34,927 nt of DNA from Chitinophaga pinensis (GTDB lineage Bacteria > Bacteroidota > Bacteroidia > Chitinophagales > Chitinophagaceae). Shown in pieces: positions 10,348-14,444 of this stretch. The DNA lies in assembly GCA_945870835.1 (NCBI GenBank), contig CAMBTV010000004.1, positions 1 through 34,927 of the forward strand, written 5' to 3'. The notes under the pieces are model-generated. The model was not told the origin of the DNA. It saw nothing but the letters and a program-made list of their open reading frames with translations, and did no database searches. Position 1 is the stretch's first letter; each line of letters begins with the position of its first letter. Position numbers and translations under genes: made by a program.

Positions 10348-10810
10348 CTTTAGTTCAATCACTTTCGACTTACTTCTTTTATTTTAAAACCATTTTTTTG
10401 AAAAAGCTTTTATTCATCCTTTTGATGCTATTTTTTCAAATTTTTTGACTGTACAGGATTCATATCCGCCGCGGCGGACCCGGGTTCAAATCCCGGTCTC
10501 GCTACATGAAAATCAAGGACTTACGTTATGGAAGGGCTATGATCTAGCGCTACCATTTTAGTATCGCGCTTACTTCTGTTTGCATCGGCTCGGGGTAGAT
10601 TTCACCTTCATTTCTGATCATTTTTCCACTCCTTTCGACCTGTGTATATCATTCTAATTGATATATTATACATAGGCATAATATTTAAATCAATGATTAC
10701 TAACTGCCATCTTTCTAGTGGCGGATTGCAAAAGGGTCTTTGTGATAAATAAGCTTAAATTCGTAATGTCTTATTGATATCTCACGACACCAATTCTAAA
10801 TCAAATTTTA
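10348..10810. other. 463-bp gene-free stretch with the first tRNA-fragment repeat
   Basis: No coding region is seen. It holds repeat R1 (10459-10528). The sequence after R1 (about 10529-10810) is not shared with the other repeats and has short inverted motifs such as TAGCGCTA near 10555. No convincing promoter for the gene at 10811 was found. Confidence 0.6.
10459..10528 (+). repeat. R1: 70-bp core with tRNA 3' end, left boundary of the array
   Basis: A 70-bp core identical to 12027-12096 and with one mismatch to 13646-13715. In order it holds TTCATA, the 14-bp perfect palindrome TCCGCCGCGGCGGA (10465-10478), a tRNA T arm (CCGGG, loop TTCAAAT, CCCGG), a 7-nt acceptor strand TCTCGCT with discriminator A, then ACATGAAAATCAAGGACTTA. 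The 5' half of a tRNA is absent, so this is a fragment. Here the ~103-bp arm that precedes the core in R2 and R3 is missing, and similarity stops after ACGTTA, before the downstream half of the terminator hairpin. GC content is far above the surrounding DNA. Confidence 0.85.
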
Positions 10811-11761
10811 ATGCATCCTATTTTAAAGGTCATTACTCTTATCTTTTTTTTAAATCCATTTTTGAGTGTAAATAATCTTTATAGTCAATCTTTTTCGCCC
10901 TCTACCATAAATAAGGACACCACTTTAAATAAGAAAAGGTTTGCAATTGTCAATACTTCCACGCTAATTGGTTTAGTGGGTAGTTATCATTTTATTAATA
11001 GTGCATGGTGGGCAGATTCAAAAAAAAGTTTTCATTTTGATGGTGGGGGCCCTAGTATTAAGGATGCATTTAATCTAGGAAGGGATGCCGTCTATGCAAA
11101 ACAATTAGACAAATTTGGACATTTTTACAGTGGTAGAATAATTAGTGATTTGTATGTAAGAGCTATTAGTTGGTCTGGTAAAACAGAACAACAATCATTA
11201 CTATGGGGTGGAATTTTAGGAACTACAGTAAATGGTTTTGTAGAAATTAAAGATGGTTATTCTCCCACTTGGGGTTTTAGTATGTATGATTGGTTGAGTG
11301 GTTCTTTAGGTAGTTTTTATCCATATTTCCAATCTAAAAGTAGGTTTTTAAAAGCATTAGATATAAAGTACAGTTATTACCCAAAGTATAATTATTATTA
11401 TAATTTTATTAAAAGAAGAGGCAACGATTTTTTTGATGATTATATGAATGCTACATTCTGGTTCACATTTAATCCAAAAAGACACAAGCCAACAAGTATT
11501 TGGCCTAAATGGTTAGGTATTTCTGCAGGAATTGGTGTAGATCAAACTTTAAATAATTATTATATAAATATGCCAGGCGGAAACGCTGATTATGGCAAAG
11601 GTGGTTATGAGTTTTATTTAGCACCAGACATTGATTTTGAAGGCTTGTTGCCTAAAAGACCTTTTTGGAAAAACCTTGGGCGTGCATTAAATTATATAAA
11701 GTTCCCAACTCCAGCTATTAGGTTTAGTAAAGATTCTAAATTTATGCAACTGCATTTTTAA
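10811..11761 (+). CDS. DUF2279-family exported protein (array cargo 1)
   Basis: A 316-aa protein with a Sec signal peptide (hydrophobic to ...FLSVNNLYSQS, about residue 26). The DUF2279 (YfiM-like) core is recognisable at ~45-180: SAWWADSKKSFHFDGGG, YAKQLDKFGHFYSGRIISDLY, NGFVEIKDGYSPTWGFSMYDWLSGSLGS. Hydrophobic and glycine patterns suggest membrane-associated segments, and the late region (IGVDQTLNNYYIN...) looks like beta strands of an envelope protein. The biochemical role of the family is not known. It is the only gene between repeats R1 and R2, so it is the cargo of the first module. Confidence 0.88.
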   Translation: MHPILKVITLIFFLNPFLSVNNLYSQSFSPSTINKDTTLNKKRFAIVNTSTLIGLVGSYHFINSAWWADSKKSFHFDGGGPSIKDAFNLGRDAVYAKQLDKFGHFYSGRIISDLYVRAISWSGKTEQQSLLWGGILGTTVNGFVEIKDGYSPTWGFSMYDWLSGSLGSFYPYFQSKSRFLKALDIKYSYYPKYNYYYNFIKRRGNDFFDDYMNATFWFTFNPKRHKPTSIWPKWLGISAGIGVDQTLNNYYINMPGGNADYGKGGYEFYLAPDIDFEGLLPKRPFWKNLGRALNYIKFPTPAIRFSKDSKFMQLHF

Positions 11762-11923
11762 GCGCTCTTTTATTAGAACCTTCAATTGTTGTAAACAGAA
11801 ATACACACAAAGAATCTTACCATAAGCTGCAAAAAAAATTCCGAGTTCTAAAAAATTTCGGAGCTTTTGTTACTATTAACTAGCTAGGCTGGAACCGGCA
11901 ATGACTTGAATTTCAAATATCAC

Positions 11924-12133
11924 TGCGTGAGGAAAACACCCCCTCAAATCGGTCCAAATCGGTTGATTTCGGTTTTGTGAAATCATAACACACTACAAAT
12001 CAACGCCATCATTTTCACAAAAAATCTTCATATCCGCCGCGGCGGACCCGGGTTCAAATCCCGGTCTCGCTACATGAAAATCAAGGACTTACGTTAAATC
12101 GTAGGTCCTTTTCTGTTTTTGCGTGAGGAAAAC
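11924..12133 (+). repeat. R2: full repeat (arm, tRNA-fragment core, terminator)
   Basis: A 210-bp repeat bounded by the 14-bp direct repeat TGCGTGAGGAAAAC at 11924-11937 and 12120-12133. The arm (11924-12026) contains two CAAATCGGT copies and an ATTTCGG inverted copy. The core (12027-12096) has the palindrome at 12033-12046 and the tRNA T arm plus acceptor strand. It runs into a terminator hairpin. The arm is shared with R3 and R4, the core with R1 and R3. Confidence 0.88.
12083..12120 (+). terminator. Terminator following the tRNA fragment in R2
   Basis: AAGGACTTACG (12083-12093) pairs with CGTAGGTCCTT (12100-12110), with one T-G wobble, followed by TTCTGTTTTT. It starts 15 nt after the tRNA 3' end, which is where a tRNA gene's own terminator would lie, suggesting the fragment and terminator were copied together. 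Confidence 0.7.
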
Positions 12134-12225
12134 CTGTTTTTTAATAAAAAATGGATGGTAACTAGTAAGGAATTTTAGAGTCCAAAAACGCCTTATTTTA
12201 AGTAACTTTATAGTCAATTCTGATT

Positions 12226-12420
12226 ATGAATATTGCACCAGTCTTACATAAAGCGCCATTAAAATCATTTGACGAAAAAATGAATGATTTGGACTATTGG
12301 TTAGCTCAACCTTTGATAAAAAGGCTTGAAGCGGTCACATTTTTAATATCTCAAACTGTAGATTTAAAAACTACCAGAATGGATAAGTCACATGTAGTAA
12401 GAAGAAAACTGAAAGCATGA
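12226..12420 (+). CDS. Small protein paired with nucleotidyltransferase (array cargo 2)
   Basis: A 64-aa soluble protein, mostly helical by composition: SFDEKMNDLDYWLAQPLIKRLEAVTFLISQ, then a basic tail KTTRMDKSHVVRRKLKA. Proteins of this shape (an acidic start, '..YWL...P..RLEA..FL', then a basic end) commonly precede nucleotidyltransferase-domain genes in Bacteroidota. Its stop overlaps the next start by 4 bases (ATGA), so translation is coupled. A two-gene toxin-antitoxin or regulatory module is possible, but I cannot assign which partner does what. Confidence 0.8.
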   Translation: MNIAPVLHKAPLKSFDEKMNDLDYWLAQPLIKRLEAVTFLISQTVDLKTTRMDKSHVVRRKLKA

Positions 12421-13490: not shown

Positions 13491-13541
13491 CCATTCCATC
13501 TTTGTTTTAGTGACATACTAGATTTTTTATTATAATCACAC

Positions 13542-13747
13542 TGCGTGAGGAAAAGACCCCCCTGAATTCGGTCCAAATCGGTTGATTTCGGTTTTGTGAA
13601 AACATAACTAACTACAAATCAAGGCCTTCATTTTCTCAAAAAATCTTCATATCCGCCGCGGCGGACCCGGGTTCAAATCCCGGTCTCGCTACATGAAAAC
13701 CAAGGACTTACGTTAAATCGTGGGTCCTTTGTTATTTTTGCGTGAGG
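13542..13747 (+). repeat. R3: full repeat (arm, tRNA-fragment core, terminator)
   Basis: A 206-bp repeat with the same plan as R2: TGCGTGAGG at both ends (13542 and 13739), an arm with CCAAATCGGTTGATTTCGG, and a core at 13646-13715 that differs from R1/R2 by one base (GAAAACCAAGG instead of GAAAATCAAGG). The palindrome is at 13652-13665. The arm has drifted more than the core when compared with R2. Confidence 0.88.
13702..13738 (+). terminator. Terminator following the tRNA fragment in R3
   Basis: AAGGACTTACG pairs with CGTGGGTCCTT (13719-13729), then TGTTATTTTT. Compared with R2 one stem base differs (A to G), which turns a T-A pair into a T-G wobble, so the hairpin is kept. Confidence 0.65.
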
Positions 13748-13911
13748 TTTTTGTTATTTTTTACTAAAAACAAACTGAGATGAATCAGTAAGTTCATTAA
13801 TATCCAATAGTGAACATTGTATTAATTTAAATTAATTTAAACAACGAAACTCTCTACAACCAAAAGTCTAAATTGGTTTGACAACGTAGAAAATTAAATA
13901 AACTAACAAAC

Positions 13912-14280
13912 ATGATAAAATACTTAGTCGCTTTTTTTATCCTTTTAAATATCTCATGCAATAAGTCAAATAATACTTCAGTAGCTTGTTTTAAAGGCAA
14001 GTTAGTGTTGAAAGGGATTTGTATGAATTATGTAATTCAAATAACCGAGGGTGATGTAGATAAGGCATTGTATGAAAGTAGTTGGCAAAATCCATTAACC
14101 AATACTACCTATCAAAATGTTTTTGGTTTAGCAAGTACCTGCACTTTCCCAGCCACAATTAAAGAAGGGGATGAATTTTATTTTTCAATTCCTAAGAATC
14201 CAATAGTTCCAGCTTGCGCTGATTGTATGGCATATAGTCCAACTCCAAGCAAAAAAATATATATTGAAATCTGTAAGTAA
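13912..14280 (+). CDS. Small cysteine-rich lipoprotein (array cargo 3)
   Basis: A 122-aa lipoprotein with lipobox ...NISC and lipidated Cys16. The mature part has six further cysteines (SVACFK, KGICMNY, STCTFP, PACADCMAY, EICK), enough for three disulfide bonds in the periplasm or at the surface. No known domain is recognised. It is the only gene between repeats R3 and R4 and so forms the third module. Its length and secreted nature resemble small envelope proteins common in this phylum. Confidence 0.82.
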   Translation: MIKYLVAFFILLNISCNKSNNTSVACFKGKLVLKGICMNYVIQITEGDVDKALYESSWQNPLTNTTYQNVFGLASTCTFPATIKEGDEFYFSIPKNPIVPACADCMAYSPTPSKKIYIEICK

Positions 14281-14332
14281 TCAATCTAACGCAGAAACAT
14301 AAATGGTGTAATTTATTTTGTGTTTCTTTCCA

Positions 14333-14444
14333 TGCGTGAGGAAAACACCCCCTGAATTCGTTTAAAATCGGTCGCTTTCCGTTTTATCAAACCATAAAAC
14401 ATTACAAATCAATACCTTCATTTTTTCAAAAAATCTTCATTCCG
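14333..14444 (+). repeat. R4: arm only, right boundary of the array
   Basis: Starts TGCGTGAGGAAAACACCCC and follows the R2/R3 arm to AAAAAATCTTCAT (ending 14440), then has TCCG and departs (TCCGATGAAAAGG) exactly inside the first half of the palindrome. No tRNA piece, core or terminator follows. It is more diverged from R2 and R3 than they are from each other (TTTAAAATCGGTCGCTTTCC in place of the repeated CAAATCGGT). Confidence 0.8.

Follow-up and report, generated by a model that had tools for sequence, protein, structure and literature searches.

The DNA analysed here, called the window throughout, is the whole 34,927-nt stretch of contig CAMBTV010000004.1 from the Chitinophaga pinensis assembly GCA_945870835.1. 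Within it lies a row of three gene modules, each consisting of a short core, one or more cargo genes, and an arm, and it is this row, together with its relatives in other genomes, that we set out to explain. A sequence-only reading of the window had described three 70-bp cores and three arms in the order core, cargo, arm, and both the repeats and their order are confirmed: the cores start at 10459, 12027 and 13646 (identity 100, 100 and 99%), and the arms start at 11924, 13542/13543 and 14333, the later ones matching the first at 82-83% across 108 nt. Successive cores are 1568 and 1619 bp apart, successive arms 1619 and 790 bp. The features of the row are as follows.

10453..10464, plus strand: left boundary ACAGGA-TTCATA, resembling in sequence the 5' side of the tRNA-Met anticodon stem-loop
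10459..10528, plus strand: core 1, with tRNA-Met 3' half, hairpin and truncated terminator
10811..11761, plus strand: cassette 1 cargo, 316 amino acids (aa), DUF2279 (PF10043, E 3.1e-9)
11924..12026, plus strand: arm (right end) of cassette 1, GCGTGAGGAAAAC...AAAAAATC, ending at TTCATA
12027..12128, plus strand: core 2 and left end of cassette 2, with tRNA-Met 3' half, hairpin, terminator and GCGTGAGG
12226..12420, plus strand: cassette 2 cargo, 64 aa, no Pfam match
12417..12872, plus strand: cassette 2 cargo, nucleotidyltransferase-like, DUF2204 (PF09970, E 3.4e-10)
12918..13490, plus strand: cassette 2 cargo, DUF1572 / DinB superfamily (PF07609, E 4.4e-73)
13542..13645, plus strand: arm of cassette 2
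13646..13747, plus strand: core 3 and left end of cassette 3, with tRNA-Met 3' half, hairpin, terminator and GCGTGAGG
13740..13772, plus strand: left-end stretch of cassette 3, a recombinase relic (29 of 33 positions equal to the 3' end of the recombinase gene carried by relative G303)
13912..14280, plus strand: cassette 3 cargo, 122 aa, lipoprotein-like by eye, no Pfam match
14333..14440, plus strand: arm of cassette 3 plus TTCAT, without a core; right boundary of the row

A complete repeat, arm plus core, measures about 205 bp and occurs twice in the window (11924-12128 and 13542-13747, 93% identical to each other), while the copies at the two ends are incomplete, the first lacking its arm and the last its core, as is expected where a row ends on each side. 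The repeat is not local, since the window genome holds 12 matches to it, four of which are the window copies; a second set of three more diverged sites, the third partial, lies on contig C25 of the same genome.

The identity of the core becomes visible in relatives, which were chosen by an exact match to 31 bp of it. The scan returned 63 stretches in genome contigs, all of them metagenome-assembled genomes (MAGs), with contigs titled Chitinophagaceae, Sediminibacterium, Chitinophaga, other Bacteroidetes genera, or plain Bacteroidetes. Many of these relatives contain a complete gene of the form GGCGAGGTAGCTCAGTTGGTTAGAGCACAGGA-TTCATA-ACCCTGAGGTCCCGGGTTCAAATCCCGGTCTCGCTAC, which ARAGORN calls as tRNA-Met(cat), and the core is the 3' half of this tRNA-Met(CAU) gene, cut in the anticodon loop, together with the terminator. 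The repeats had been taken for tRNA fragments from the window alone, and the relatives now supply the name of the tRNA. In the array copies the arm replaces the 5' part of the tRNA before TTCATA; the tRNA half is followed by a terminator-like hairpin and then mostly by one to four GCGTGAGG-like repeats, and the arm also begins with GCGTGAGG. Core plus terminator (12027-12118) folds with a z of -4.3. A unit extends from TTCATA to TTCATA, which is the layout expected after an element has entered a tRNA gene at the anticodon loop and restored its 3' part. Tyrosine integrases can make use of anticodon loops, as Williams reportedly described in 2002.

The loci around the pth gene in relatives indicate where units land. 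Of 30 such loci, 20 include tRNA-Met, and at 18 of these 20 the tRNA is of the GGCGAGG type and runs directly into the left end of a unit as far as the contigs reach (for 3 nt only in one case), which is the arrangement of an RNA gene whose end is restored by the element. The window row itself begins at a non-tRNA sequence, CAGGATTCATA. Rows away from tRNA-Met start at TGTACAGGATTCATA in the window and at TTTCAGGGTTCATA in genome G314 (locus L045), and among eight non-tRNA starts, chosen by eye out of 63 rows and including one (L059) that begins only 12 nt past its contig start, seven read CAGGNTTCATA and the eighth, on contig C25 of the window genome, reads CAGAATTCATA. These starts would be fallback targets that mimic the anticodon stem, although two or three of them, including that of L068 and that of the window, could be tRNA remnants; the left boundary at 10453..10464 is accordingly read either as what is left of a former tRNA gene or as a secondary target. 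A different tRNA-Met, of the GTCGGGG type and with a stem that does not contain CAGG, is present in G314 and in the window genome. The G314 copy is uninterrupted, and compared with that locus (pth 89.4% identical) the window genome's own tRNA-Met (L107 1937-2180, contig C116) has a small insert followed by a displaced 3' half with a hairpin, which is, judging by its layout, the same type of event at the tRNA itself. Contig C123 (L018 1-400) begins with the same arrangement of insert and displaced half.

In the window cores a GC hairpin, TCCGCCGCGGCGGA, occupies the place of ACCCTGAGGT, and because this hairpin would spoil a tRNA, the window row is probably fixed now. A tRNA gene within the window was looked for with ARAGORN, which finds none. 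More generally, a hairpin TCCGCC-N2/3-GGCGGA replaces the 3' strand of the anticodon stem and the variable loop in displaced tRNA-Met halves; it is seen in displaced halves of two tRNA types in the window genome and at three distinct places in relatives (window 10465-10478, 12033-12046 and 13652-13665; L107 2137; L018 182; L013 5121 and 7898). A genome-wide repetitive extragenic palindrome was considered and rejected, as all five matches to TTYATATCCGCCNNGGCGGA with at most one mismatch lie in tRNA-Met halves and a reversed-pattern control gave 0. Other hairpins (AAGCCTGTCACG..., GTGTTATTC...) follow several tRNA halves, and a further arm family, whose sequence ends in ...GTTGTCTTCATAACC or ...GGTCGATTCATAACC, precedes the same core at L048, L071, L073 and L082, so that several element classes seem to share the tRNA-Met target.

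A tyrosine recombinase linked to the repeat, which the sequence-only reading had proposed to look for, was found in relatives. Immediately behind the left end at tRNA-Met, G312, G303 and G297 each have a reading frame of 422-425 aa that points toward the tRNA, and G304 and G307 have the same arrangement in incomplete form, making five genomes in all. By its catalytic-domain profile the protein is a tyrosine recombinase (phrog_1, E 3.6e-19; XerD model TIGR02225, E 6.2e-9), scoring 24.9-25.5 bits against PF00589, just under the cut-off of 27.1; a search for relatives of solved structure gave 0 at E<=0.01. It is matched at E<=1e-10 in 13 of 39 core-bearing genomes, several of them through fragments or 41-43% relatives only. 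A separate sampling for prevalence has the recombinase in 3 of 294 genomes. The G303 carrier is complete, spanning 23.1 kb from tRNA-Met to an arm and tRNA half, and also encodes a replication-initiator-like protein and another, 189-aa recombinase (PF00589, E 6.1e-11). This stand-alone catalytic domain occurs on 4 of 76 contigs (L180 3202-3771; L155 3976-4545; L182 2238-2807; L185 7442-8008), always with the large recombinase or a 41-42% relative.

The recombinase has also left traces in units that do not encode it. A match to its C-terminus lies within 150 nt of the left end in 11 of 96 segments between sites (E<=0.05, the weakest 0.032); two of these are carriers, and nine are integrase-less segments that keep a C-terminal relic. 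Window unit 3 keeps a relic at the DNA level, its 33 nt at 13740 matching the G303 carrier end at 29 positions, and none of 20,000 random window positions matches the last 20 nt equally well. Such relics at left ends suggest that the small units arose by internal deletion of larger elements.

The segment survey covered 172 sites over 76 contigs (two duplicate contigs were swapped for longer copies, segments below 300 bp were excluded, and the genome labels of loci were assigned by hand from contig names). Consecutive sites have the same orientation in 100 cases and the opposite in 0. The 96 segments have a median of 1.65 kb and range from 352 bp to 23.1 kb, with 69 at or below 3 kb; most have no recombinase match at E<=1e-10 and keep both attachment ends, as do the window units, which hold no integrase or transfer genes, and this is what defines a cis-mobilizable element (CIME). 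The clearest row, in G301, has 12 sites at 56,069-98,115 of a 247.8-kb contig, with an intact tRNA-Met at its end. Core copies number 1-22 per genome in the 39 core-bearing relatives; since these were picked by the exact 31-bp core, neither copy numbers nor occupied tRNA loci are measures of prevalence. Among 394 genomes sampled from the family, the arm is present in 8, the window genome counted and two candidates scored per genome, and the array system is not common in the sampled family. The family is taken to be Chitinophagaceae because several of the eight agree in contig and position with loci titled that way.

Units are shared between genomes one at a time. Among cross-genome pairs, 25 share at least half of the shorter unit (members overlap between pairs, and one pair is carrier against carrier), and in none of the 16 with a neighbour known on both sides is a neighbour shared at the same cut-off. 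A G313 unit matches window cassette 2 at 92.9% identity over 1343 bp, and a G317 unit does so at 95.9% over 678 bp, at pth identities to the window genome of 65.7 and 68.3%; cassette 3 has 405 bp in common with a G303 unit at 82.5%, and cassette 1 has no shared pair in the comparison of segments from the 76 contigs. In the 13 genome pairs with pth in both, this single gene serving as the yardstick, unit identity exceeds pth identity in 12. Neither of the two findings named beforehand as speaking against the sequence-only reading turned up: single modules stand among other neighbours in other species, and the three-module order without the repeats was seen in none of the sequences searched.

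The cargo is diverse. All cargo genes of the window row run in one direction, as had been observed, and this does not hold as a rule: of 106 mechanical open reading frames (ORFs) from units up to 3 kb, 59 run along the array and 47 against it. Removing those at least 50% identical left 83, of which 81 were scanned together with four window proteins, and these 85 proteins match 69 Pfam families, none found in more than four. Against PADLOC, 24 models match the cargo, mostly candidate (PDC) ones. The suggestion of defence-type cargo in the window was not upheld, with 0 of the five window proteins matching PADLOC at E<=0.01.

Taken together, we put a probability of roughly 0.75 on the reading that the window holds a row of three integrase-less cassettes, stacked by integration at an anticodon loop through a recombinase acting in trans. 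Each unit would comprise the tRNA-Met 3' half from the anticodon loop (TTCATA), the terminator, the cargo, and a ~105-bp arm. A helper element would supply, in trans, a tyrosine recombinase that joins a circular unit to TTCATA, the target being the tRNA-Met anticodon stem-loop (CAGGATTCATAACCC), whose 3' half is restored by the unit, or look-alikes reading CAGGNTTCATA. Since each unit would bring a new copy of the target, insertions would stack in a single orientation. We infer that the linked recombinase is the enzyme at work, acting in trans and on a circular form of the unit. The two possibilities originally offered, stacked insertions into a tRNA-type target and mobile cassettes with no local integrase, appear to coincide: both would describe cassettes that site-specific insertion has stacked at tRNA-Met. 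The window row does not start at a tRNA gene. Some lake-type Bacteroidetes, it would appear, collect gene-sized cassettes in rows, with half of a tRNA gene at one end of each, in a manner resembling integrons though apparently by other recombination machinery.

Several observations weigh against this reading. What can be taken directly from sequence is the structure of the units, their tRNA anchor in relatives, the linked recombinase, the single orientation, the sharing of single units, and the recombinase-end relics; the movement of units is deduced from these, and neither activity nor a circle has been seen. At E<=1e-10, 26 of the 39 core-bearing genomes have no recombinase match, and the window genome has no match to the large recombinase at E<=1e-20, all of these being draft assemblies. 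Neighbourhoods were read from MAG contigs, in which repeats can produce false joins. The two units shared by G296 and G303, at 84.1 and 79.3%, fall below the pth identity of 89.1%. Two segments of G301 partly match two of L053 and keep their order, with differing segments between them (below the sharing cut-off); scrambling is therefore not universal, and it looks as if a single unit had been swapped or gained while its neighbours stayed. Finally, the loci of the left gene pair and of the right-hand gene in relatives offer no clean empty site for the window row.

An unlikely alternative is that site-specific placement belongs to the past and that present exchange and reshuffling come from homologous (RecA) recombination between the ~200-bp repeats, with no working cassette machinery. 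The repeats are long and alike enough for it (93% in the window), the majority of core-bearing genomes have no detectable recombinase, and the same cargo can have differing left ends, the G313 match to window unit 2 beginning 65 bp inside the window unit. Recombination between repeats alone, however, would not be expected to yield CAGGNTTCATA starts outside tRNA genes, a recombinase beside the tRNA in five genomes, or single units shared by distant genomes.

Much less probable still is that the units are phage satellites moved in phage particles, an idea prompted by two carriers whose proteins match PHROG replication-initiator families: viral contigs gave 0 exact matches to the core or arm pattern, phage records gave one 40-nt tRNA-Met match only, and no structural phage family appears among the scanned carrier proteins (Pfam: 7 of G303 and 3 of G297; PHROGs: 9 besides one recombinase; the far half of the G303 carrier lay outside the scan). 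Plasmid records gave no match. An integron, or a cluster of attC sites lacking an integron integrase (CALIN), in which an integron integrase recombines attC sites, would also give gene-sized units in rows whose sites all point the same way, and yet we consider it hardly credible. An ordered RYYYAAC...GTTRRRY pair occurs in 1 of 34 sites, so that attC was rejected; cargo lies in both directions (59/47); and the recombinase scores far under the cut-off on every NCBIfam recombinase model it matched. The best of these are XerD and XerA-type models, and no genome search was aimed at an IntI-type integrase.

Around the row, the two genes to its left (8927-10347) are a conserved pair in the genus, one of them matched in 14 of 93 genomes, with a second copy on own contig C225 (2383-3147; the 255-aa gene 85% identical in aa); in relatives, other DNA follows the pair at the loci read. 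A search of 16 genomes for the right-hand gene turned it up in one, G314, whose contig carries an orthologous right flank (90% over 994 bp from 14498), a differing left side and no sites. The window genome encodes five other tyrosine recombinases. On its contig C161 (L101 4663-6193), GAGCACTT-like repeats separate tRNA-Phe from a 406-aa tyrosine recombinase close behind it, possibly a second tRNA-targeting element. A DUF805 cis-regulatory RNA (RF03081, 67.3 bits) lies at window positions 6-72.

Several known systems share parts of this design, compared here through the portions of their reports available to us. The tandem ssrA islands of Dehalococcoides (PMC3146451) likewise follow an RNA gene in a row, with repeats of its 3' end as borders and some members (15 there) having no integration module, and their module combines two recombinases, one large and one small, comparable to the ~425-aa and 189-aa proteins here; they differ in using serine recombinases and the tmRNA T-loop instead of a tyrosine recombinase and the tRNA-Met anticodon loop, and the present units are mostly gene-sized with defined arms. 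CIMEs and tandem accretion (PMC5704250) show the same loss of integration genes, retention of both attachment sites and site-specific stacking, whereas the units here are mostly below 3 kb, many per genome, and singly common to distant hosts. The additive flexible genomic island of freshwater Methylophilaceae (PMC10872708) has recurring 20-bp repeats of a tRNA-Lys end and sizes of 330 bp-42 kb, in another phylum and at another tRNA, and the available part of that report names no arm, recombinase or unit-by-unit sharing. Tycheposons, as characterized in PMC10872708 and PMC11389934, resemble the arrays by description in being tRNA-bordered, with a tyrosine recombinase and cargo, yet span 4-200 kb. 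Integrons and CALINs (PMC11389934) likewise line up promiscuous gene-sized units whose sites share one orientation; here, in contrast, there is no attC motif, a tRNA anchor is present, and cargo points both ways.

It is a serious possibility, if somewhat short of an even chance, that the arrays form a platform convergent with integrons, in which the tRNA-Met anticodon stem-loop would act as attI and the arm plus tRNA half as attC, and the joining would fall to a divergent tyrosine recombinase acting in trans, perhaps together with the 189-aa protein, the gene-sized units spreading singly between genera and landing also at CAGGNTTCATA look-alikes. If so, a tRNA gene and an ordinary-looking integrase would make an integron-like gene collector in uncultured bacteria, and because the ends of the units, the target consensus and a candidate recombinase are all defined, both trans movement and the internal-deletion origin are directly testable. 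Among the papers listed by literature searches, titles and abstract openings gave no description of such a gene-sized, singly shared, integron-like array. The kind is already known from CIMEs, ssrA islands and additive islands, the first two giving stacks at RNA genes with integrase-less members and the last an island marked by tRNA-Lys repeats, and it is the gene-sized, singly shared, integron-like form that looks new.

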